A DNA stretch of 64,000 nt from Patescibacteria group bacterium (GTDB lineage Bacteria > Patescibacteriota > Microgenomatia > UBA1406 > GWC2-37-13): NCBI GenBank assembly GCA_026004435.1, contig BPJD01000001.1, forward strand, positions 124,001 through 188,000, given 5' to 3'. A program made the translations under genes and the position numbers. The stretch's first letter is position 1, and every line of letters starts with the position of its first letter. Positions 3,278 to 63,485 of the stretch are shown here, piece after piece. Under the pieces are notes generated by a model. That model had not been told where the DNA came from and did not search any database. It worked only from the letters and a program-made list of their open reading frames with translations.

Positions 3278-4084
3278 TGTATAGGTTACATACATATGGC
3301 ACTTTTGAGGGTAATTTTTAAGTATGTAATCTATTGGTGATATATTGCCTAAACTTTTGTGAACTCTTTTGGTCTTATACCAGATAAGATAATCAATAGC
3401 TCTTTATTGAATTCATCTAAAGAGATTAAAATACTATCTTCTTTTAAATCTACAAACTCCTCTTGAAGAGTTCTGTTTGCTCTCTTTACATATGAGTTTA
3501 TCTTTGGACATCTAGGATATGAGTACAGGTGTTTTATTCCTTTGTTCTTTAGATATCTGTCAAACTCTCCTTCAAACTAACTCCCGTTATCTGTTTGAAC
3601 TGTATGTATTCCTTCTTTAAAAGGATATACTAACTCCAACTTCTTAAAAAACTCTAAAGAAATCCTGCTTGTTAACCTTGTATATGCCAAACAGAACTGA
3701 AATCTTGTGTTTATATCAACAGCAGTTATGATATATAGCTTTATTCCATATACAAATCTTATTATGGTATCTATCTTTATATATCCTGCTGATTTTATTT
3801 TTGGACTTTTTCTTATCTTGTTTTTGTATTTAATCTTTCTGCTTGTCTATTTTTTTGCAGGATTATGATAAAATCTTCCCTTTCAGTAGTAGAAAAGATT
3901 CTATCTTCTTATCAACTTACCTATGGTTGATAATAGATCTTTCATAATTCGCTTATTATACAAAGGGGTACCATACCATACATGCTTGAGTCTTATTCGA
4001 ACACCGATTGATCCTTTCACTTTCTTTTACTTTTCTCCCTCTTTCTTAATACCTTAAAGTGCCATATGTTTCGTAACTTTTTCA
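3278..4084 (-). mobile_element. Decayed IS481/IS3-like insertion sequence with 33-bp inverted repeats
   Basis: The ends are imperfect 33-bp inverted repeats with TG...CA termini. Both contain ATATGGCACTTT and GTTAC at the same spacing (3278-3310 and 4052-4084). On the minus strand, pieces of a DDE integrase can be read: AVDINTRF (first Asp), VQTDNGS (second Asp), and RANRTLQEEFVD with the catalytic Glu region. A stop replaces the residue after TDNGS (TAG, 3577-3579), and further stops and shifts are present, so it cannot be autonomous. No target duplication is visible at the present ends. A second end fragment lies at 33038-33198. Confidence 0.75.
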
Positions 4085-4089
4085 GAAAA

Positions 4090-4192
4090 TGTATAAGTGG
4101 TGTACATCGGGAACACTCTCATTAGCTTATAATTTTCATTATTCAACTCAACTGGTAATTGATAATTAAGTGATTGCCTAAATCTTATAAGT
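4090..4192 (-). mobile_element. Terminal fragment of the 485-bp repeat element
   Basis: About 100 bp match the TGTATAAGT end of the elements at 29065, 41075 and 55224 (for example the shared stretch AACACTCTCATTAGC and then GATAATTAAGTGATTG). The copy stops near 4192. It lies 5 bp (GAAAA) from the end of the IS remnant 3278-4084, so two related elements are packed together. Confidence 0.7.
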
Positions 4193-27417: not shown

Positions 27418-28945
27418 AAAGGAGGTGATCCAGCCGCACCTTCCAGTACGGCTACCTTGTTACAACTTAACCCCCATCACCATCGACTTCCTCCCCGCCT
27501 AAAACGGCGGGTTCAGAAATCAATGACTTTGGTGGCTTGATGGGCAGTGTGTGCAAGAGGCAAGAACGTATTCACCGCGGCATAGCTGATCCGCGATTAC
27601 TACTAATTCCGCGTTCATGAGGTCGAGTTTCAGACCTCAATCCCCACTGAGAACAGGTTTGTGGGATTTGCTCCCTGTTGCCAGTTAGCATCCCATTGTC
27701 CTGTTCATTGTAGCATGTGTGTAGCCCAAGGCGTAAGGGCCATGCTGACTTGACGTCTGCCCCTCCTTCCTCCCCGATAAAGTATCGGGGCAGTTTCCTA
27801 TGACAAATTTAACATAGGATGGGGGTTGCGCTCGTTGTCCCACTTAAGGGCACTCCTCACGGAACGAGCTGACGACAGCCATGCAGCACCTGTCTTGCCT
27901 TTCCGATTAAATCGGAATCATTCCGTATTTCTACGGAACTTGACGGCAAGATGTCAAGCCTTGGTGAGGTTCTTCGGTTTGTCTCGAATTGAACCACATG
28001 CTCCACTAGTTGTGTGCCTCCCCGCCAATTCCTTTGAGTTTCAACCTTGCGATCGTACTTCCCAGGCGGCTGGCTTAACGCGTTAGCTTCGCTACACCCT
28101 CCTGAAGAATCAGAAGAATGCGGCTAGCCAGCATGCGTTTAGGGCTAGGACTACCCGGGTCTCTAATCCGGTTCGCTCCCCTAGCTTTCGTGTCTCAGCG
28201 TCAGCTTACTTTCAGAGACTCGCCTTCGCCACTGGTGTTCCCTAGGGTATCAACGCATTTCACCGCTCCTCCCTAAGTTCCAGTCTCCCTAAAGTAAGCT
28301 CAAGCTAAAAAGTATTTCAGCCTTGTCCGAGGTTGAGCCTCGGGCTTTAAGCCAAAACTTTTTTAGCAGCCTACACGACGCTTTACGCCCAGTAATACCG
28401 GATAACGCTTGAGGCCCACGTATCACCGACGCTTCTGGCACGAAGTTAGCGGCCCCTTTCTAGTAGGATACTGTCAACCCACCTAAGAAGGCAGGCTTCA
28501 TCTCCTACCACAGCGGTTTACACTCGTAAAGAGCTTCTTCCCGCACGCGGTGTCGCGGGGTCAGGCTTTCGCCCATTGCCCACTATTCCTGATTGCTGCG
28601 CCCCGTAGGGCTGGAGCCCGTGTCTCAGTGCTCCTCTGGCCGATCATCCTCCCAGACCGGCTACCCGTCGTAGGCTTGGTAGGCCATTACCCTACCAACT
28701 ACCTGATAGGCCGCAGGCCCCTCCCTAAGTGAGCAGTTAAGCCCTTTATTCTGACTATAATGTCAGAAACTATAGAGTATTACCCCCGATTTCTCGAGGC
28801 TATCCTCTGCTTAGGGGCAGGTTCCTACGTGTTACTCAGCCGTCCGCCGCTACCCTAAACCACGAGGGATTAGGGACGCTCGACTTGCATATCTCAGGCA
28901 CACCGCCAGCGTTCATCCTGAGCTAGGATCAAACTCTTACCAAAA
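27418..28945 (-). rRNA. rrs: 16S ribosomal RNA
   Basis: This gene is about 1528 nt. The 3' end has the anti-Shine-Dalgarno GGATCACCTCCTTT, and the 5' end has AGAGTTTGATCCTAGCTCAG. Conserved cores such as ATTAGAGACCCGGGTAGTCC and the 1100 region are present, with helix changes throughout, including GC-rich hairpin tips (near 27495 and 27775). Length leaves no room for a large intron. No tRNA, 23S or 5S follows: the next gene downstream is the convergent MreB-like gene. Termini are estimated from conserved ends. Confidence 0.97.
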
Positions 28946-29030: not shown

Positions 29031-29059
29031 ATTATATGTATAAATGCTCATATTGTCAA
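29031..29059 (-). promoter_or_regulatory. Consensus promoter of 16S rRNA
   Basis: On the minus strand a perfect TTGACA (29059-29054), 17 bp and a perfect TATAAT (29036-29031) give the best sigma-70 promoter in the window. The start of transcription is expected near 29024, about 80 nt before mature 16S. Confidence 0.9.
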
Positions 29060-29064
29060 GCTCT

Positions 29065-29549
29065 TGTATAATCCGGGTACATAGACAACAGTTTCATTAA
29101 ATTATAATTCTCATTATACTATTCAATAGGTGGCTTATAATTAACTGCCTGATGCGGCCTTTAAAGATATAAAAAATTAACCAATTTGTTAATCTCTTGT
29201 TTGCCTTTTTAAGGTCCATCTCTGTGATAATGCCTCAAAATTACTCATCCATCTGCATAAACTCCTCCTGTAAGCTCCTAGTAAATTTTTCATGTACTTT
29301 TTGCTTTGGCAAAATCAAGTGTTTTTCTTCTTCTTTTTTTTGGCCTTCTAGAAAGTATCCTTGTTTTGGTGAAACTTTTAACCAAAAGTCTTGGGAGACT
29401 ATGTCCTGAACCGAACTTGTTCTGTTTTAGGATTATATTTTATAGATAATGTCTCTGCATCTTTTAATGATTCTTTACCTAATTCCATATCGTTTGATGA
29501 TAAAAATTGATATAGAAGTGTTAGCTATGTATCTCAACTTGCACAGGCA
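29065..29549 (-). mobile_element. 485-bp non-autonomous element, copy R1
   Basis: This is the most diverged full copy of the family also at 41075 and 55224. One end is TGTATAATCC at 29065; the other reads TGCCTGTGCAAG on the minus strand, 4 nt longer than in sister copies. The 5-bp GCTCT lies on both sides (29060-29064 and 29550-29554), fitting a target duplication. The inside carries remnants of a DDE-integrase C-terminus. It sits between the 16S promoter and the promoter of the operon starting at 29598. Confidence 0.8.
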
Positions 29550-29562
29550 GCTCTTAAATTTT

Positions 29563-34139: not shown

Positions 34140-37100
34140 ATGGAAAGCCAAGAACAAATAAAAATTCAATCTCTTCAACAAGAACTAATAAAAACTCTAT
34201 TAACAACCCTTGTTGAAAATCCTACCTCTAGTTTTCGTCAACAATGGGCAGATTTATTAAGAAACAATGGCGACAAACAAAAAGTTTTAAACTTTGATCA
34301 ATATCCAACTCTTTCTTCTCTTTTAAACAGTCTATCTTTTTCTTCAAAAAGAGCTTTGTTTCAATGCTTATTTAGAGAATTACAAGAAAAAGAAATTACA
34401 TCTGCAGAAAAATTAATTAGGTTTTTAAGAGAACTTAGAGCCCCCCAAATACAAGAAAGAATAAGAATAATTTATAATCTTCCCTACTTTGTTGATCTTG
34501 ATTTTTTAAAAGTACTTATGATGCAAGTAAGAACAGGTTCAATCTCACTGGAAGATTTTTTAAAACTTTTAGGAGAAAATGGCCAGGTATCCAATAAAAG
34601 AATCAAAGAAGAACTTGAGCAAAAAACAGAAAGAAAAATTACTCACTTTCCAAAAGATCGCAGGGCAGAAATTACCCGTCAATATCAATCACCTGAACCT
34701 TTAAAACAATCAATTGCTGAAGCGGTTTCAAACTCTATTGATGCTATCTTAACTAAACAAGGGATTGAAAGATCTATTGGCCAATGGGGTAGAGGAATTA
34801 AAATGTTAACCGCTTATCTTGATCATCCTCAAGATTCAATTGTTGTTACAACTACAAAAGACAATCAAACCTGGCAGATTGAGATTAAAAAAGGCGGTGA
34901 TGGCAGATTTTATCTTCGATCAGAAAAAATTGACCAACCAAAAGAAGAACAAGAAGCTACCGGTACTACTGTTACCTTACAAAAACAACCATTAGACGAA
35001 GATTTTTTAGAACTACTTAAAATAAATTTAAAAACAAGATTTCGTTTTACTCCTGATGTTGAAATAAAAATTAATGATGAACCGATTAATGACTACGCCA
35101 ACCTTATCAATCTTTCAACCAATAAACCTTTAAAAAGAGAAAAAACCTTAGGCAATGTTGATATTAGTTTAAAACCCAATCAAGTCTCTATTAAAGATAA
35201 TGGTAGTGGGATGACACCTGATCAACTTTTATCAATGTTTATTCCTAATCTGGGTAGCAAACCATTTATTGAGATTACCCAAGATAATCGTCATTTATTT
35301 TTACCTCTGGTTGAGGTTTTTTATGAAGAAACTCGTCCAGAAAAAGAAGAAGCTTGTATTTACTTTAGTCGCAACCGAGAGGTAATTTTTTCTATTAGAC
35401 TTGATGATAAACTTAATCTTTTTAACCAACCGCTATTTTTTGAACTTGGTCCTCTTCTTGAAAGTTCTGATGCTAGATTACAAATAAAAATTAATGATAA
35501 TTTTAAAGAGGCAATTAAAAAAACAATTGATTTGGTTGTTGAAGGTGAGACTGAATCACTAACCAAAATTCAGGTACTCAATACTTTAACCGTTTATTTA
35601 CTTAAATCAGGTGGAGAAAAGTTAGGCGATAAAAGACAACAAACTTTCTTTATTACCCAAGATATCATTACTTACTGTCAAGAAAAAATCGCTCCTTTAA
35701 TTGAAGATCTTACTCATAAAGGCTATCGGTTTATTCCTAACAATCCTGAGTTTTCTTATCTAAAAATATCTACTGACCCCAAGACAATCTTTCTTGATTC
35801 TCATCTTTTTTATTTTAAACCGCAGAAAATTCCTGATTTTGAACAGATTCCTCCGTCTATTTTTCAAAGTTCAACTGGAAAAAAACTTTTTCTCGCTGAT
35901 TTTAAAGAAGAAGCACCATCACCAATTATCGCCTATGAAAACGGTTTTTTTATCGATAAAAAAGTATGGCAAAAGCTTTTAGATTTGAAAGAAAAATCGC
36001 CACAAGATTTTGAGGTTTTACTTACTGCTTTAAATCTTCGTCTTAATCCGGTTTCAACCTCATACGATCCTTATGAAGAACCCTTAAAAAATCTTCAGAA
36101 CATAATTGTTTTCAAAGACCAAATCCAAGAAGAAAGTGAATCACAAGAAACAAAACTACCACTATGGTTAACTTCTGAACAAAAAGAAAAAATAAAAAAT
36201 ACCTTTGAAGGTATTAAAGAGATTGCCGATTATGGAAATTCGGTTAATTCTGTCTCTTTTTCTCCTGATGGACAAAAGATTGTTTATGCTGGAAAAAGTG
36301 GTAAAGTCTATCTTTATGATCTTCAAACAAAAGAATCAAAGTCTATTGCTGATTATGGAAGTTGGGTTATTTCTGTCTCTTTTTCTCCTGATGGACAAAA
36401 GATTGTTTATGCGGGAGAAGATGGTAAAGTCTATCTTTATGATCTTCAAACACAAGAATTAAAGCTTATTGCTAATTATAGAAATAGAAGGTGGGTTATT
36501 TCTGTCTCTTTTTCTCCTGATGGACAAAATATTGTTTATGCGGGCAGCGGTGGTACAGTCTATCTTTATGATCTTCAAACACAAGAATCAAAGCTTATTG
36601 CTGATTATAGAAGTGGGGTTAATTCTGTCTCTTTTTCTCCTGATGGACAAAAGATTGTTTATACGGGAGAAGGTGGTACAGTCTATCTTTATGATCTTCA
36701 AACACAAGAATCAAAGCTTATTGCTAATTATAGAAGTTGGGTTATTTCTGTCTCTTTTTCTCCTGATGGACAAAAGATTGTTTGTGCGGTTATCGGTGGT
36801 CAAGTCTATCTTTATGATTTTCAAACAAAAGAATCAAAGTCTATTGCTAATTGTGGAAGTTCGGTTAATTCTGTCTCTTTTTCTCCTGATGGACAAAAGA
36901 TTGTTTATGCGGACACCGATGGTACAGTCTATCTTTATGATCTTCAAACAAAAGAATCAAAGTCTATTGCTGATTATAGAAGTTGGGTTAATTCTGTCTC
37001 TTTTTCTCCTGATGGACAAAAGATTGTTTATGCGGGAAAAAGTGGTAAAGTCTATGAAGCAACTGTTGATTATAAAATAAATTTTACTTTCTCAAAAGCT

Positions 37101-39704
37101 AGCAGTCTTCTTGAAGCTTTAAATGATCTTTATTCATCACCTCAGACAATCGTTGATGCTTTTTGTGAGTTTTTTGTTAAAGAAAAAAATGAAATTAATG
37201 AAAATTTGCTTACTGAAATTGTCAAGATATTAAAAGAAACTGAAACTTTAAAAAAACTTCAACAACTTACACAACAATTTCCTCAAATCTCCGAGTGGTT
37301 AAATGATGAAGAAAGAACAAAAACTCTAAACCAAATAATAACCAACACTCTCTACGCCTACTTTTTTGCCGTAAAAGAAAAAAATTTTTCTTCATTATTG
37401 CAGGAAAAAATTTTCGACAGCTCACTTTTTTACTTTCTTGATTTTTCCCTAATAAATCCTAATTTTGATTATGATAATCTTGAACAAATTATTAACAATT
37501 TCCCAATTTCAGAAAATCTGCTCAAACACCAAAGATATTTTTATCTTATCAATGGTTTTTTTGCCTGGGAAAAAGATCCTCAAAAAAGAGCTTTGTTTTT
37601 AGAAAAACTTTTTAAGATAAAAAACAATCCTAACTATCAAAAATATTTGGAATCTATTCAAGAGTATAACCAAAAAAAAATACAAGAGTTTTTTTCTCAG
37701 CGAACAATTGATAAAGCCATCAAGGGTCGTGCTTTGTTTGAGTATCTAAAAAAAGAGGGCGCAATTGCCATAGAAACCGCTTCTTTTGAAAGTCTTGATA
37801 GTGAATGGGGGATAAATGATAAAAATTCTTCTCTTTTTGCTCGTCCTCAAGTGCCACTTACAGAAATTTTTTATCAGTATCATATTAAAGGAAATAGAGA
37901 TTGGCAAGCAATTGTTGAGAAAATTAATCAAGAAGCTTCCACTCCTCTCAATCTTGAAACTTTTCGTCAAGAGTTAATCAAAGAAGTTAGCGGACAGGCA
38001 ATTGAAGAAGGAGTGGCTAAACGAGAAATGATTCAAAATGCCGTTGATGCCATAAAAAAAAGAGATGACATCAGTGAAGGAAGAATTGATATTAAAATAA
38101 GGATAGCTGAAAAAGACGGGGAGGAGTATTTGGTTGAAGAATTTTCTGACAATGGTACCGGTGTTTTAAATTGGGTAAAGTTCTTTATCCCAGGAGAAAC
38201 AACCAAACTTAAAGGTGATGAAGGTTTTTTTGGCAGCGGTGCTTTTAAAATATTTGAAGGGTCTGATAGAGTAGATATTTTATCATCCGATGGCAAAAAC
38301 ACTTTTTACTTTCGCTTTGAATGGCAAAACAACAATCTCGTCATTACTGAATCTCAAATTATTCCTAATCACCAAGGAGAAAAAGGCACCTCAATCAGAC
38401 GAATAAAAAAGATAAAAGAAGACACAATTAAAGAAATTGAGGCAGGAATTATTGTTGATGACTATGTTGCTTTTGCCGGATTAATTGCTGATGAAACAGT
38501 AGAAGGCAAAACAATAAAAATCTCTTTAAACAACGAACCTCTTCATCTTCAAAAAGAAAAACGATTAGAAGAAGACTTTATGGAGTTTGGCCCAATTATT
38601 TTAGTGGAAAGTTCTCTTCCTCCAACCATTGCTCATGGAATCGGTTTAAGAATGAGCGATTTGAATGAGATGTATCTTGAGTATGTTCCTGAAGATTTAA
38701 AACAACTTTTAAAAGACAAAAAAATCTCAATTATTCTTCCTTCGTCTTTACCTTTAATAAAAGATAGAAGTAGAATTGCCAATGAAGAACATCTGCTTGA
38801 ACCTTTAAAAAGAAAAATTGCCGGTATGGTAATCAAATTGGCCGCTCAAGAACTTATTCAAAACTTTCGACAAAGAATCGCTCAAGGAGTATCAAAAATA
38901 ATCTGGAAACCAAAAGGTTTTCCAGATGACTGGTTTATTAATCCTCAATACTCATCTCTTTCCCCCTCTGATGTTAAAAAAATAATAGAAATAATAAGGA
39001 AACTAAACAGTGGTGAGATTTTAAACTACGAGGAGCTTAACATTTTAAATCAGCCTTTTGATGTTACCAGCAGATTGGCAATGGTTATTGTTCGCATTAA
39101 AGTTCCTTTAAAAGATGGTCGACAATCAAATCTCCTTGTTGAAATAAACAAAGTTAAAAGAACCAAAAAATTACGGCAAATTTACCGAAGAAAATTTGAT
39201 CCACAAGTAAGATCTAGTTTATCTTCGTCAATAAATGGAAAAATAGATTTACAAGGCATTTATACCACAAATGGAAAAATAGATTTAGGCATTGATACCA
39301 CTTTATTACAACAACCAGGATCTATAGATATAGATCAAGGAGTTGGGGTTGCAAATTCCTTTTTTGGTAAACGTGATGAAAAAGATGTTAATGAGCAATT
39401 GTTAACTGAAAAACAAAAAAAAATCCTTGACCAACTTAGAAAAATTGCCGCTCTTTTTGGATTATCAGTAATTCCAAAAAAAGATATTGGTGCAAATGGA
39501 TATTTTCATAACAAATATTTCGTAGTTGATATTTCTGTTTTGGATAAGCCATTACCCTATGCTGCTGCAATATTTTTGCATGAACTAGCTCATTTTGGCC
39601 CAATCTATAATGATCTTTTTACTAATCAAGTTAGTGGCGTCTTTGGCGAATTGTATTATTGGGTTTTAGATCAGGTTTTACAACAATATCCAAAAATGAA
39701 TTAG
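34140..39704 (+). CDS. Giant GHKL-WD40-GHKL-metallopeptidase protein (1854 aa)
   Basis: Domains in order: a helical N-terminus; a first GHKL-like ATPase region with EAVSNSIDAI (N box, near 194), GQWGRGIKML (near 215), ATGTTVTL (near 273) and a late DNGSGM (near 354); a helical and beta linker; seven WD40-like units (about 694-977), each with VSFSPDGQKIVYAG and VYLYDLQT; a helical region; a second, canonical GHKL ATPase with EMIQNAVDAI (near 1295), FSDNGTGV (near 1335), DEGFFGSGAFKIF (near 1360) and GEKGTSIRR; and a C-terminal zinc-peptidase motif FLHELAHFGP (His1814, Glu1815, His1818) with a possible third ligand Glu1837. No membrane helix is seen. In the first GHKL copy the Asp-box comes after the G2-like motif, so it is permuted or degenerate. 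I know no named family with this order. A sensor or chaperone-like conflict protein is an inference. Confidence 0.85.
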   Translation: MESQEQIKIQSLQQELIKTLLTTLVENPTSSFRQQWADLLRNNGDKQKVLNFDQYPTLSSLLNSLSFSSKRALFQCLFRELQEKEITSAEKLIRFLRELRAPQIQERIRIIYNLPYFVDLDFLKVLMMQVRTGSISLEDFLKLLGENGQVSNKRIKEELEQKTERKITHFPKDRRAEITRQYQSPEPLKQSIAEAVSNSIDAILTKQGIERSIGQWGRGIKMLTAYLDHPQDSIVVTTTKDNQTWQIEIKKGGDGRFYLRSEKIDQPKEEQEATGTTVTLQKQPLDEDFLELLKINLKTRFRFTPDVEIKINDEPINDYANLINLSTNKPLKREKTLGNVDISLKPNQVSIKDNGSGMTPDQLLSMFIPNLGSKPFIEITQDNRHLFLPLVEVFYEETRPEKEEACIYFSRNREVIFSIRLDDKLNLFNQPLFFELGPLLESSDARLQIKINDNFKEAIKKTIDLVVEGETESLTKIQVLNTLTVYLLKSGGEKLGDKRQQTFFITQDIITYCQEKIAPLIEDLTHKGYRFIPNNPEFSYLKISTDPKTIFLDSHLFYFKPQKIPDFEQIPPSIFQSSTGKKLFLADFKEEAPSPIIAYENGFFIDKKVWQKLLDLKEKSPQDFEVLLTALNLRLNPVSTSYDPYEEPLKNLQNIIVFKDQIQEESESQETKLPLWLTSEQKEKIKNTFEGIKEIADYGNSVNSVSFSPDGQKIVYAGKSGKVYLYDLQTKESKSIADYGSWVISVSFSPDGQKIVYAGEDGKVYLYDLQTQELKLIANYRNRRWVISVSFSPDGQNIVYAGSGGTVYLYDLQTQESKLIADYRSGVNSVSFSPDGQKIVYTGEGGTVYLYDLQTQESKLIANYRSWVISVSFSPDGQKIVCAVIGGQVYLYDFQTKESKSIANCGSSVNSVSFSPDGQKIVYADTDGTVYLYDLQTKESKSIADYRSWVNSVSFSPDGQKIVYAGKSGKVYEATVDYKINFTFSKASSLLEALNDLYSSPQTIVDAFCEFFVKEKNEINENLLTEIVKILKETETLKKLQQLTQQFPQISEWLNDEERTKTLNQIITNTLYAYFFAVKEKNFSSLLQEKIFDSSLFYFLDFSLINPNFDYDNLEQIINNFPISENLLKHQRYFYLINGFFAWEKDPQKRALFLEKLFKIKNNPNYQKYLESIQEYNQKKIQEFFSQRTIDKAIKGRALFEYLKKEGAIAIETASFESLDSEWGINDKNSSLFARPQVPLTEIFYQYHIKGNRDWQAIVEKINQEASTPLNLETFRQELIKEVSGQAIEEGVAKREMIQNAVDAIKKRDDISEGRIDIKIRIAEKDGEEYLVEEFSDNGTGVLNWVKFFIPGETTKLKGDEGFFGSGAFKIFEGSDRVDILSSDGKNTFYFRFEWQNNNLVITESQIIPNHQGEKGTSIRRIKKIKEDTIKEIEAGIIVDDYVAFAGLIADETVEGKTIKISLNNEPLHLQKEKRLEEDFMEFGPIILVESSLPPTIAHGIGLRMSDLNEMYLEYVPEDLKQLLKDKKISIILPSSLPLIKDRSRIANEEHLLEPLKRKIAGMVIKLAAQELIQNFRQRIAQGVSKIIWKPKGFPDDWFINPQYSSLSPSDVKKIIEIIRKLNSGEILNYEELNILNQPFDVTSRLAMVIVRIKVPLKDGRQSNLLVEINKVKRTKKLRQIYRRKFDPQVRSSLSSSINGKIDLQGIYTTNGKIDLGIDTTLLQQPGSIDIDQGVGVANSFFGKRDEKDVNEQLLTEKQKKILDQLRKIAALFGLSVIPKKDIGANGYFHNKYFVVDISVLDKPLPYAAAIFLHELAHFGPIYNDLFTNQVSGVFGELYYWVLDQVLQQYPKMN
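36220..37070 (+). repeat. Seven near-identical WD40-coding repeats (about 120 bp)
   Basis: Seven in-frame units of about 120 bp (the third is about 6 bp longer) encode one WD40 blade each. The framework DNA is almost the same in each. Changes cluster at two sites per unit: the blade-top residues before VNSVSF or VISVSF (YGNS, YGSW, YRNRRW, YRSG, YRSW, CGSS, YRSW) and those after VYAG (KSGK, EDGK, SGGT, EGGT, VIGGQ, DTDGT, KSGK). Confidence 0.9.
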
Positions 39705-40820: not shown

Positions 40821-41074
40821 ATTTATTTATAATTCAAGCGTACTTCTGTAAAAAAATCAAAATTTCATTCCTTTATTTTAATCCTTCAACACCTTTTTCT
40901 CAAAAATTTTCAGAAAAATATGTCGTACAACTCTTTTCTATACGAATTGTTTGTACAATACTGACCTTTTAGTTGCATATTATACCAACTTAATATATAT
41001 AATCATAAACGACATTACAATTGTCTATTTATTAGTTTTAGTTTACCAATTTTTATTAAAAATATGCAAGAAAA

Positions 41075-41559
41075 TATATAAGTCGGTTACATCGGTAACA
41101 CTCTCATTAGCCTATAATTTTCATTATACCATTCAACTGGTGATTGATAATTAAGTGATTGCTGATATCTTATAAGATTGTAAAAGATTAACTATTCGGT
41201 TAATCTCTTGTTTGCATCTGTAAGGTCTGTCTCTGTTAATAAATCTTCAAAATATTCATCCTCCTGCATAAACTTCTTCTGTAAGCTCCTAGTAAATTTT
41301 TCATGTACTTTTTGCTTTGGCAAAATCAATTGTTTTTCTTCTTCTTCTTTTCTTTGGCCTTCTAGAAAGCATCCTTGTTTTGGTGAAACTTTTAATCAAA
41401 AGTCCTGGGAGACTATGTCCTGAACCGAACTTGTTCTGGTTTAGGATTATATTGTATAGAGAATGTCCCTGCATCTTTTAATTATTCTTTACCTAATTCC
41501 ATAGCGTTTGATGATATAAGTTGATATAGAAGTGTTAGCTATGTATCTCAACTTGCGCA
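41075..41559 (-). mobile_element. 485-bp non-autonomous element, copy R2
   Basis: This is nearly identical to the copy at 55224 in reverse orientation, with exactly the same 485-bp length. Ends: TATATAAGTCGG at 41075 (one base off the TGTATAAGT consensus) and ...ACTTGCGCA at 41559. No target duplication is visible. The inside holds only the C-terminal part of a DDE integrase with stops. A small open frame on the opposite strand is a shadow. Confidence 0.85.
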
Positions 41560-55177: not shown

Positions 55178-55223
55178 CTTATAATATCTTGGTACCTATG
55201 TAGGCATTAACCAAAAAAAGTAC

Positions 55224-55708
55224 TGCGCAAGTTGAGATACATAAGTAACACTTCTATATCAACTTATATCATCAAACGATATGGAATTAGGTAAAGGATC
55301 ATTAAAAGATGCAGGGACATTACCTATACAATATAATCCTAAACCAGAACAAGTTCGGTTCAGGATATAGTCTCCCAGGACTTTTGATTAAAAGTTTCAC
55401 CAAAACAAGGATGCTTTCTAGAAGGCCAAAGAAAAGAAGAAGAAGAAAAACAATTGATTTTGCCAAAGCAAAAAGTACATGAAAAATTTACTAGGAGCTT
55501 ACAGAAGAAGTTTATGCAGGAGGATGAATATTTTGAAGATTTATTAACAGAGACAGACCTTACAGATGCAAACAAGAGATTAACCGAATAGTTAATCTTT
55601 TACAATCTTATAAGATATCAGCAATCACTTAATTATCAATCACCAGTTGAATGGTATAATGAAAATTATAGGCTAATGAGAGTGTTACCGATGTAACCGA
55701 CTTATACA
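55224..55708 (+). mobile_element. 485-bp non-autonomous element, copy R3
   Basis: Ends are imperfect inverted repeats of about 28 bp with TG...CA termini: TGCGCAAGTTGAGATACAT on the left and, inverted, TGTATAAGTCGGTTACAT on the right, both running into GTAACACT. A 5-bp target duplication AGTAC flanks it (55219-55223, 55709-55713). The plus strand encodes only an integrase tail: FTRSLQKKFMQEDEYFEDLL, YNLIRYQQSLNYQSPVEWYN, with stops. It cannot move itself. Confidence 0.9.
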
Positions 55709-55713
55709 AGTAC

Positions 55714-55742
55714 TTGACAAATTTGATAATAGACTTTATAGT
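55714..55742 (+). promoter_or_regulatory. Leaderless promoter of the pilin gene
   Basis: TTGACA (55714-55719), 17 bp and TATAGT (55737-55742) end 6 nt before ATG 55749. The -35 begins at the base after the R3 target duplication. Confidence 0.85.
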
Positions 55743-55748
55743 AAAAAT

Positions 55749-56267
55749 ATGATGAAAAAAATAAATAATCAAAAAGGTTTTACATTAATTGAACTTTTAA
55801 TAGTTATTGCTTTGCTTGGAGCGTTAGCAGTTGGTTTGCTGGCAGCAGTTGATCCTTTTGAACAATTAAAAAAAGGTAGAGATACCTCAACAAGAAACAC
55901 AGCTGCTGAATTTTACGGTGCATCTATTCGTTACTACGCTCAGAGATCAAGGTTTGCTTGGGATGAAACTACTACACCTTTAGCTACTGGTACAGTAACT
56001 AGTTTAAATAATCTAACTGAAGCAATTTCATTAATGGCAGATGCTGGAGAATTAAAAGAAGATTTTGTTGAATTAGCTGGTACAGGAAATTTATCTAGAA
56101 TTTCACTATATTATGAGACTTCCCAAAAGCTAGTTGTTTGTTTCCAACCGGAATCAAAGTCCTTTAGAAATGATGCAAACACAAAGTACAATCAATTTGG
56201 TGTTGTTCAACCAACATCAGTGTGTCCTGATCCTAACTCCACATCTTGCTATTATTGTTTCAAATGA
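55749..56267 (+). CDS. Type IV pilin
   Basis: This 172-residue protein has a class III signal, NQKGFTLIELLIVIALLGAL: cleavage after Gly, Phe at +1, Glu at +5. A helix and a globular domain follow, ending in a Cys-rich tail (SVCPDPNSTSCYYCFK). The strong promoter suggests high expression, so it may be a major pilin. It lies 17 nt upstream of a DUF2723 protein. Confidence 0.85.
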   Translation: MMKKINNQKGFTLIELLIVIALLGALAVGLLAAVDPFEQLKKGRDTSTRNTAAEFYGASIRYYAQRSRFAWDETTTPLATGTVTSLNNLTEAISLMADAGELKEDFVELAGTGNLSRISLYYETSQKLVVCFQPESKSFRNDANTKYNQFGVVQPTSVCPDPNSTSCYYCFK

Positions 56268-60601: not shown

Positions 60602-61123
60602 ATGCTTAAACTAATAAGAAAAAAATCTTCTGAGTACGGATTTTCTTTGATTGAGATGATGTTGGTAATACTGTTATTGGGAGTCTTGGCTAGTTTGATA
60701 ACAAATACTTTTGTAAACTCATTGAAAAAAAGCAGGGATGCCAGAAGAAAAGGTGATATTAAGGAAATTAAAAATGCAATTGAGATGTTTTATGCTGATA
60801 ATAATTTCTATCCTACTCCTACTTATGTTGCCTTTGGCTCAAGTTTGGAATACAATGGCAAGGTGTATATGAAAAAGCTCCCTCAGGATCCAAAATCTAA
60901 CTGTAGTTATAAGTATGTTTTAAATGCAAATAATGGAGAGTTTTATATACTTTCAACAATTGAGAATGATCAGGACGAATTTCCGGGAGTTTCTCAAGGT
61001 GGTTATTATGAGATTGGCTCCTCAAGTAATAAATACTACTGCACCAGAAGTGGATCAAACCAACCTTGTTTATGCAGATTTTATGACGGTAGTCCAAATG
61101 CTGTTCTGACTCCAGCTCCATAA
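60602..61123 (+). CDS. GspG-like pseudopilin
   Basis: This 173-residue protein has a prepilin signal, EYGFSLIEMMLVILLLGVLA, then the GspG-type stretch KKSRDARRKGDIKEIKNAIE and a Tyr/Cys-rich C-terminal domain. TATAAT (60589-60594) ends 7 nt before ATG 60602. It converges with the five-pseudopilin operon on the minus strand. Confidence 0.85.
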   Translation: MLKLIRKKSSEYGFSLIEMMLVILLLGVLASLITNTFVNSLKKSRDARRKGDIKEIKNAIEMFYADNNFYPTPTYVAFGSSLEYNGKVYMKKLPQDPKSNCSYKYVLNANNGEFYILSTIENDQDEFPGVSQGGYYEIGSSSNKYYCTRSGSNQPCLCRFYDGSPNAVLTPAP

Positions 61124-61124
61124 T

Positions 61125-61616
61125 TTAATACTCAAATCTGGAATAATCTCGTTTGATATTAACAGTATCATTGCCGGAAATGCCTTTCCAGGTTACAGTT
61201 ATATTGGCAGTTATTTTTTTGGTTGCTGAATCATAGCTTAAAACTAGATCGCGTTTATACCTGCCGGATAATGAATAATTATTATTACAGCTTCCTACAG
61301 CAGGCCAGTTTGAAACTGTTTCTGTATTAAAACAATAATTTCTGCTTGAACTACTGCCATTATTGCTGCCTGTTTTAGCTTGAAAGTCTGACCAACTTTT
61401 GTATCTTTCGTTTGTTAGCCAGTTTTCTAAACTTTTGGCATAATACTCCGCTAAAGCTCTGTATTGGGTGTTTTTTGTGTTTTTAATCGATGTAATAATC
61501 AGACCGGCTGCTGCAATTAAAATTAATGAGATTAGCAAAATAAAGGTTAGCAGTTCAATCAAGCTAAAGCCCAAATTGTCAGTTGCAGTTTTCTGATTTA
61601 ATCTCTGCTCCGCCAT
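61125..61616 (-). CDS. Minor pseudopilin (PilV/GspI-like)
   Basis: This 163-residue protein has the prepilin signal LGFSLIELLTFILLISLILI and a C-terminal beta domain. It is the last gene of the minus-strand pseudopilin operon and overlaps the previous gene by 38 nt. Probably part of the pilus tip or priming complex. Confidence 0.75.
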   Translation of the reverse strand: MAEQRLNQKTATDNLGFSLIELLTFILLISLILIAAAGLIITSIKNTKNTQYRALAEYYAKSLENWLTNERYKSWSDFQAKTGSNNGSSSSRNYCFNTETVSNWPAVGSCNNNYSLSGRYKRDLVLSYDSATKKITANITVTWKGISGNDTVNIKRDYSRFEY

Positions 61617-62109
61617 ATTTATTATTAAAAACTAATGACTTTGTGATGTTATTGTACTGAATTTTATAGCAGGCATTTGTTATATTTTCAATTATTTTGC
61701 CTGTTTTAATCTCAAATCTTAATGTATTGAATGGTCTTTGTGTAAACACTCCTTTTTCTAATAAATAATTAATAGGAGTTGGTGTTATATTTAAAATGCC
61801 ATTATTAGCACAAGCTGCTGTAATTCTATAGGCTTTATACTGGTTATTAACTTGATACAGTTCAAGCAAGTAGACAGTTGGTCTTACAGTTATTGTTTGA
61901 GAACTGCAGACCTGTGTGCTTTCTGCTCTGGCAAGTTGTGAAGCATACTCAACAGCTTTATTGAACTTTAACAACTCGGTCTCAATTGATTTGGTAGTAG
62001 TAAACCCTCTGTAATTGGCAATAGCAAGTCCGGTTGTTGCAGTTAAAATTATAATAACAAACAAAACCTCAATTAATGTAAAGGCTTTGTTAGGTCTATT
62101 TTTTCCCAT
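61579..62109 (-). CDS. Minor pseudopilin (GspH/FimT-like)
   Basis: This 176-residue protein has the signal KAFTLIEVLFVIIILTATTG, with Ala instead of Gly before the cleavage site, then LLKFNKAVEYASQLARAEST, typical of GspH. It overlaps its neighbours on both sides (14 nt upstream, 38 nt downstream). Ala at -1 is tolerated by some prepilin peptidases. Confidence 0.78.
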   Translation of the reverse strand: MGKNRPNKAFTLIEVLFVIIILTATTGLAIANYRGFTTTKSIETELLKFNKAVEYASQLARAESTQVCSSQTITVRPTVYLLELYQVNNQYKAYRITAACANNGILNITPTPINYLLEKGVFTQRPFNTLRFEIKTGKIIENITNACYKIQYNNITKSLVFNNKYGGAEIKSENCN

Positions 62110-62545
62110 TAGGGCCCAAACAGTATTTGCAATTAATAGTTGTCCCTGTGCTGGAGCAGTTAAGTATTACGCTACAGCTAGAGTTAAGAATTTCTTGAAT
62201 AGTTCCTAGGGTGTAATCAGAACATTGGCTACCTGTACAAGATACTGGTTGGTAAACATACTTGTACTGGGTGCTTTTTGGATCTGTTGGTATCGCACCA
62301 ATATAGGGACTAGGATTTGGTGTTGTTAATGTATATATGTTAGTTGGGTAATAATCATTGTTAACTCTATACATTTCCAAAGCTGATCTGATGGCTTCTA
62401 AATCTACTTTTCTTCTTTCATCTCTAGAACGCAGGATAGCATTATTGTAGTTTACTATTGCTATTGTAGCTATAATGCTTATTATACCTATAGTTACTAG
62501 CATCTCAATTAATGTAAACCCTTTTTTATTGTTTTTTAGTTTCAT
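62096..62545 (-). CDS. GspG-like pseudopilin
   Basis: This 149-residue protein has KKGFTLIEMLVTIGIISIIA and RSRDERRKVDLEAIRSALEM, the pattern of GspG pseudopilins, with Cys pairs in the C-terminal domain. Gene spacing is 81 nt after the preceding pilin gene. Confidence 0.82.
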   Translation of the reverse strand: MKLKNNKKGFTLIEMLVTIGIISIIATIAIVNYNNAILRSRDERRKVDLEAIRSALEMYRVNNDYYPTNIYTLTTPNPSPYIGAIPTDPKSTQYKYVYQPVSCTGSQCSDYTLGTIQEILNSSCSVILNCSSTGTTINCKYCLGPNGKK

Positions 62546-62626
62546 TTTATATTAATTATTAAATAAATAATTTGAGTAATTTGTTTTAGCTTTAACTAGA
62601 AATTGTTTTATAATCATTTTGCTTTT

Positions 62627-63034
62627 TTATTGTTTATTTGTTACACAAACTGTTGGCCCAACTTCTATACCACCTGCACACAATCTGTATGCGTTTCCAG
62701 TGCAGAGAGTTGTTGGGCAAGAATAAGGAGTGTTTTGGGGATCAAAAGGAACTGTTACCATAATACCTGCCGATGGATTAGTGCAGATTATCGCATTAAT
62801 CCTGTTACTAACTGGAGTAGGATAGCTATTGCCGCAGATAGCATAGTATTGTTCTAATGCATTTTGGATATCTTTGATATCACCTAATCGTTTTGCATCT
62901 CTGGCCTTTTTTTCAGCAGTGTTATAGGAGACTATTGAGATGCTTGTTAGTACAGCTATTATGCCTATAACTACTAACAGCTCTATTAGTGTGAATCCTG
63001 TTTGTTTGTTTTTTTTATGGCTCATTAAGTACAT
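62627..63034 (-). CDS. GspG-like pseudopilin
   Basis: This is about 135 residues (132 if ATG 63025 is used). It has QTGFTLIELLVVIGIIAVLT then AEKKARDAKRLGDIKDIQNA, and several Cys near the end. It overlaps the previous gene by 20 nt or less. Confidence 0.82.
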   Translation of the reverse strand: MYLMSHKKNKQTGFTLIELLVVIGIIAVLTSISIVSYNTAEKKARDAKRLGDIKDIQNALEQYYAICGNSYPTPVSNRINAIICTNPSAGIMVTVPFDPQNTPYSCPTTLCTGNAYRLCAGGIEVGPTVCVTNKQ

Positions 63035-63485
63035 AATATGCTTGGCATTGTGCTCCTTCAGGAGAGCTAAACCCTGCTGGAGGTGAACTTGTAATATTAG
63101 GTCCTTGTTTGTTAGCTTCCATACAAGCTGCTAATGTGTATGTCAGTGTTGTTGGCCTATTGTAAAAATACTTATAAGTACAACCATTGCCCATTGGATC
63201 GGCTGGAAAGGATTTCATTAATGGCTCATTATTTGGGCCTGTCCATTGCTGACAAGGTGTGATTGCCGCAAAGTTGGCTGGGTAGACTGGCGGTTGCACA
63301 GATTGTTTGTATAGCTCTAAGGCTGTTTGTATAGCTTTTAAATCATTCATTCTTTTAGAGTCTCTGGCTTTTTTTCTTGCCTGATTATAGTTGGCTACTC
63401 CAACTGCTACCAAAAAACCTATCATAGCAATAACAACTAATAACTCTATTAAAGAAAAACCCTGATAAAGATTATTTTTCATCAT
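63015..63485 (-). CDS. GspG-like pseudopilin
   Basis: This 156-residue protein has YQGFSLIELLVVIAMIGFLV then ARKKARDSKRMNDLKAIQTA. It begins directly after the holB stop with no gap, so the pseudopilins may be co-transcribed with holB. Confidence 0.82.
   Translation of the reverse strand: MMKNNLYQGFSLIELLVVIAMIGFLVAVGVANYNQARKKARDSKRMNDLKAIQTALELYKQSVQPPVYPANFAAITPCQQWTGPNNEPLMKSFPADPMGNGCTYKYFYNRPTTLTYTLAACMEANKQGPNITSSPPAGFSSPEGAQCQAYYVLNEP

Follow-up and report, generated by a model that had tools for sequence, protein, structure and literature searches.

The repeats described here derive from an IS481-like insertion sequence with a single transposase gene of the rve-type DDE kind, and are its non-autonomous remnants. 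Such elements very probably transpose in a promoter-directed and oriented manner, choosing promoters of the sigma70/sigmaA type. The initial annotation of the window, a 64,000-nucleotide stretch of a Patescibacteria contig, had suggested that the element picks targets beside -35 boxes. There is strong support for this, though the choice is more aptly described as one of sigma70-type promoters: -35 and -10 boxes stand at fixed positions, 11 of 11 duplication-confirmed sites in Escherichia coli agree, and the promoters are already there at empty sites. The layout common to 25 duplication-confirmed sites and 48 further right ends is the right end of the element, 5 nt, a -35 box, about 17 bp, and a -10 box.

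Element copies in the window and source genome

The window has three copies of the element, R1 to R3 (Table 1), each about 480 bp long and decayed, in which a remnant of an integrase-type transposase gene, from its 3' end, can be recognised. By alignment and own-genome search, R2 is 98% and R1 86% identical to R3. As the three have an internal deletion in common, they appear to be MITE-like non-autonomous derivatives. The right end had been placed 5 nt from a -35 box in all three copies, which is correct, with the R2 hexamer matching the consensus at just 3 of 6 positions. Overlooked at that stage were R4, R6, and the nature of the 5 nt, which make up the target-site duplication. Since this holds for R3 and R1, the adjoining -35 is host target DNA and not part of the element. 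The base before TTG had been read as C each time. It is the final duplicated base and not a general feature: over 73 sites it is C in 34% and A in 38%.

The gene downstream of R1 is that for 16S rRNA (27418-28944, minus strand; Rfam SSU), and the pilin ATG downstream of R3 is at 55749. The right end of R2, TATATAAGTCGG, is the terminus with one mutation; nucleotides 41074-41070 separate right end 41075 from TTGCAT, and no target duplication was found in the R2 flanks. Between the usual left terminus of R1 and the left copy of its target duplication, again GCTCT, lie 4 extra bp, GGCA (29546-29549), as if the left end had moved, either during insertion or afterwards.

Contig C4 of the 885-kb source genome (G000) holds a fifth copy. 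Its left flank is AGGAC and its right flank GGGAC, the latter followed by TTGATT-17-TATTAT, and it lies upstream of a 1,065-aa ORF that, from its sequence, we take to be RpoB. At offset 5, the truncated R4 reads TGAAAA, with no -35, and the right end of R6 (3278) is followed by TTGATG, with no -10 downstream.

Several further features were observed. The second IS481-like family, to which R6 belongs, occurs twice in G000 (window 3278-3930, minus strand, and L159, G000:C4:9100-12800) with the same in-frame stop pattern, and its right ends lie 5 nt from TTGATG in R6 and TTGCTT in L159. Several ORFs whose N-termini resemble those of type IV pilins (GFTLIE motif) are clustered at window 60602-63485 and 55749-56267; the one starting at 55749 has R3 at its promoter. 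A single 1,854-aa ORF at window 34140-39704 has repeated 'SVSFSPDGQKIVYA' units; by eye, the repeats resemble the WD40 type, and there are GHKL-like ATPase stretches.

Table 1. Element copies, target-site duplications, and adjacent promoter boxes in the window
Feature	Coordinates	Strand	Detail or basis
R1, non-autonomous IS481-like copy	29065..29545	-	Alignment, own-genome search, ends
R1 ends	right 29065; left 29545	-	Right end reads TGTATAATCCGG inward; left end TGTGCAAGTTGAGATA
R1 target-site duplication, right-end copy	29060..29064	-	GCTCT on +
R1 target-site duplication, left-end copy	29550..29554	-	
R1-adjacent -35 box	29054..29059	-	TTGACA, 16S rRNA promoter, host DNA
R1-adjacent -10 box	29031..29036	-	TATAAT, 16S rRNA promoter, 17-bp spacer
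R2, non-autonomous copy	41075..41559	-	Alignment, own-genome search, ends
R2 -35-like sequence	41064..41069	-	TTGCAT, 3/6 to consensus
R2 TAAACT	41045-41040	-	18 bp past TTGCAT
R3, non-autonomous copy	55224..55708	+	TGCGCAAGTTGAGATACATA...CCGACTTATACA; alignment, own-genome search, ends
R3 target-site duplication, left copy	55219..55223	+	AGTAC
R3 target-site duplication, right copy	55709..55713	+	AGTAC
R3-adjacent -35 box	55714..55719	+	TTGACA, pilin promoter
R3-adjacent -10 box	55737..55742	+	TATAGT, pilin promoter, 17-bp spacer
R4, right-end fragment	4090..4191	-	Truncated, 102 bp
R6, decayed remnant of second, related IS481-like element	3278..3930	-	In-frame stops

Transposase and element family

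An intact relative in the MAG RSWP21 is 1,293 bp long and encodes a 370-aa transposase, and the nearest named relatives with the element are Microgenomates and Shapirobacteria MAGs, all within Patescibacteria. A scan of the genome_contigs set gave three loci only, and the other genome in the genus of G000 had no matching copy. The transposase has the Pfam domains HTH_28, HTH_23, rve, and rve_3, a helix-turn-helix followed by an rve-type DDE domain, with D194, D253, and E288 invariant across 23 transposase sequences; the Pfam scan gave no Mutator-type domain. The best NCBIfam model for the transposase P0001 is IS481 (NF033577), at 175.4 bits, followed by IS3 at 111.8. As the IS481 score is under the curated cut-off of 224 bits, we call the elements IS481-like.

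The termini are TG...CA (TGT...ACA) with short imperfect inverted repeats, as in IS481; read inward, most copies start with TGT at the right end, and with TG at the left. The target duplication is 5 bp at 25 sites in Patescibacteria and 11 in E. coli. This falls inside the range of 2-15 bp described for IS481 elements but differs from their most common length, 6 bp (PMC10045372). At one locus (L030, G016:C45, ~1500-1560), the right terminus is tandemly repeated (CCGACTTATACCCGACTTATACA), and the outer terminus copy is still 5 nt from TTGACA-17-TATCCT.

Promoter signal at a fixed offset

The transposase search covered 372 genomes of the class, with 53 matching, and 333 of the phylum, with 37 matching; many of the sites lie on MAG contigs. 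Ends were placed by TG..CA, the inverted repeat, the left-end motif GATACAT, and the 5-bp duplication, and no sequence past the duplication was used. At 25 sites the 5-bp duplication is perfect and the end clean (class A), to which 48 further right ends placed by similarity were added, for a total of 73. Partial copies were added by end sequence (L002, L003, R4, L032, L035, L090, and L170), and pattern matches without a transposase (L066, L067, L070, L073, and L074) and ends matching at fewer than 15 of 20 positions were excluded. L059, the called end of which falls within the ORF, was taken out of class A, and its likely true right end was retained in class B as a counter-example. The exclusion filters concern the element side only, but their cut-off was chosen after the flanks had been seen, which makes the 25 sites confirmed by a duplication the cleaner of the two sets.

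In these 25 sites, the match to TTGACA averages 4.68 of 6 at offset 5, against 0.9-2.4 at all others, and the match to TATAAT peaks at offset 28 only, at 3.84; the left flanks carry neither a -35 nor a -10 signal. Over all 73 sites, exact TTGACA stands at offset 5 in 29 (shuffles: mean 0.02, maximum 1), and both boxes match at 4 or more of 6 positions in 46 (500 shuffles: mean 1.3, maximum 5). The pattern is far beyond chance. The initial annotation had proposed a test for enrichment of CTTGACA beside the same end; the enrichment holds for the -35 box, though not for the preceding C. By position, TTG is present at offset 5 in 88, 89, and 85% of the 73 sites. The offset is strictly 5 bp, with no spread to 4 or 6, and the orientation is single. 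Where there is a good -10, the spacer is 17 bp in 29 of 43 sites, and the bases at -15 and -14 lean to TG, an extended -10 (73 sites). The spacer sequences differ at every site, so that each site represents a separate host promoter. An ORF lies downstream in 62 of 69 sites, at a median of 46 nt past the -10; among these genes are some that we recognise from their sequences as, presumably, rpoB, lon, nusA, uvrA, and ribosomal-protein genes.

The -10 box is not confined to sites with a good -35. In 19 of 73 sites the -35 matches at 3 of 6 positions or fewer (for example, L061, CAAAGT-17-TATGAT; L104, TTTTTT-17-TATAAT; and L052, TTCATT-17-TATGAT). The best -10 at these sites averages 4.42 of 6, against 4.44 at strong -35 sites and 3.06 +- 0.21 in shuffles of the weak subset. 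The strengths of the two boxes show no simple trade-off (Spearman -0.12, p 0.33). Copies with no -35-like sequence at this offset had been named as what would speak against the association. A few exist, but the pattern over 73 sites stands; the right ends without it are R4, R6, L059, L048, L088, and L131.

The promoter predates the insertion

Comparison with empty sites had been proposed as a check on whether the -35 predates insertion, and it shows that the promoter came first. Element-free family members, such as L176 and L178, have an uninterrupted 16S promoter of the form TTGACA-17-TANAAT, and at two empty sites in E. coli, sthA and ybaQ, the joined flanks match other genomes at 100%, uninterrupted. 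At L181 (G003:C10), a related insertion lies at the 16S rRNA promoter of another genus, 5 bases from TTGACT, and is an independent event. The congener G001 gave no usable empty sites: no full 16S 5' region was matched there, and its pilins are only 36-44% identical.

Relatives in Escherichia coli and Campylobacterota

The same register is apparent far from Patescibacteria. A plasmid element of Nitrosophilus (Campylobacterota) has the duplication AATAA followed by TTGACT-18-TAAAAT. The E. coli elements, annotated as IS481 or ISKpn28-like, are 1,096 bp long with 5-bp duplications, and their transposase is 28% identical to P0001 and 35% to that of L056. A single genome can have them at up to 38 places; of the 37 copies in strain IAL7255, the analysis covered a part. 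At 11 of 11 distinct duplication-confirmed sites, offset 5 has TTG, and exactly 17 bp separate the -35 from a -10-like hexamer. L213 and L214 lie inside genes, with both boxes in register. At L218 the 5' end of the Rfam AgrB RNA is 8 nt past the -10, and at L214 that of isrK is 7 nt past it, so the promoter reading does not come from consensus matching alone. Copies without a duplication in which the pattern is missing are L194, L199-L203, and L217; most of the exceptions look rearranged or decayed.

ISKpn28-related elements (L195, L198, L208, L212, L214, and L218) recur at promoters of small or antisense RNAs, perhaps because these promoters are strong. L195, L198, L208, and L212 are beside hok-type genes, antisense to hok, where Rfam places the sok family. 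As the Rfam match is on the opposite strand, it is from established knowledge of hok/sok that we take these to be Sok promoters.

How the target is found

Two explanations that dispense with targeting of promoters can be weighed against this register. The initial annotation had offered, as one option, that the element end plus a -35-like sequence acts as a portable promoter half, and almost every copy does have a -35 next to that end, as an element carrying its own -35 would. Yet the duplication sits between element and -35 and the spacers vary, which makes the entire core promoter the host's, and the empty sites already hold the promoter. With sthA and ybaQ refuting it, we regard this explanation as next to impossible. 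Random insertion, with survivors only just upstream of promoters in compact genomes, has in its favor that insertions in genes or core promoters would be harmful and that most surviving sites are upstream of genes. Survival, however, cannot yield a single offset or a single orientation, and the in-gene sites L213 and L214 in E. coli show the same register, which makes this account extremely improbable too. A resemblance of targets to the element's own ends was also considered and rejected, as TTGA in the left end is at another offset and the ends of other subfamilies have none.

A subtler matter is whether the transposase reads the DNA directly, with NNNNN/TTGAC(A) as its target and promoters hit merely for carrying that word. 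The near-invariance of TTG at the offset is in keeping with this, as is the sequence specificity of IS481 and IS1002, with a 6-bp duplication at a consensus site, in work cited in PMC3053399. Nevertheless, a reader of the hexamer needs no -10, so the -10 enrichment at a fixed distance, equal at poor -35 sites, counts against it, as do the extended -10 bases and the retention of both boxes at L213 and L214, and we consider direct reading rather unlikely. Conservation of the -10 at weak -35 sites points instead to contact with the polymerase: the site is probably found through the promoter-bound RNA polymerase holoenzyme (sigma region 4/alpha-CTD) and not by TTGACA alone.

By whichever route, the transposase very probably steers the element to promoters of the sigma70/sigmaA type. 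The 5 bp that it cuts adjoin the -35 hexamer on its upstream side (about -40 to -36), and the right end, on the 3' side of the transposase gene, faces the promoter. Insertion therefore spares the host core promoter and replaces only the sequence upstream of about -40. With a 17-bp spacer, the staggered cut would fall where the contact of sigma region 4 ends, beside the proximal alpha-CTD site, and docking on the bound holoenzyme could account for both the exact spacing and the tolerance of weak -35s.

Relation to known systems and significance

Oriented insertion upstream of sigmaA promoters has been described for TnGBS ICEs, ISLre2 (p-MULT 3), and the ISKra4 group (p-MULT 4), and Guerillot et al. 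(2014) likewise suggested that the initiation complex of RNA polymerase is contacted (PMC3942029). These share with the IS481-like elements a fixed distance and a right end toward the sigmaA promoter, but they have Mutator-superfamily transposases, where those here are rve-type, and insert 15-17 bp from the -35, not 5 bp. As for IS481 and ISKpn28, the E. coli annotation, the best NCBIfam model, and the TG...CA ends speak for kinship, whereas the score of P0001 (175 versus 224 bits) and the mostly 6-bp duplications of described members set the elements apart. The literature found, chiefly open-access and exclusive of ISfinder, reports no promoter specificity for IS481-like elements. Promoter targeting is thus known in Mutator-type elements, and the IS481-like case is apparently new and of independent origin.

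Yeast Ty3, whose integrase is guided by TFIIIB/TFIIIC (cited in PMC3942029), likewise places itself just upstream of the transcription start and leaves the gene unbroken. Being a retrotransposon at eukaryotic polymerase III genes, it is a functional analogy, with no claim of membership. We lean, with some reserve, toward a broader reading in which an IS481-like lineage of the retroviral-integrase type, spanning Patescibacteria, Campylobacterota, and Enterobacteria, would be guided by the promoter-bound sigma70 holoenzyme. It would integrate between sigma region 4 and alpha-CTD, at about -40/-36, as a bacterial counterpart of Ty3 with an origin separate from that of Mutator-type TnGBS/ISLre2.

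Promoter-directed insertion has thus arisen in a second, unrelated transposase superfamily, apparently independently, and with single-base precision. As near relatives exist in E. coli, how the transposase finds the promoter is directly testable in a standard laboratory organism. In uncultured Patescibacteria, the insertions provide a natural marker of promoters at base-pair resolution, and their placement explains how such elements can persist in tiny genomes beside genes as important as that for 16S rRNA and, by sequence recognition, rpoB.
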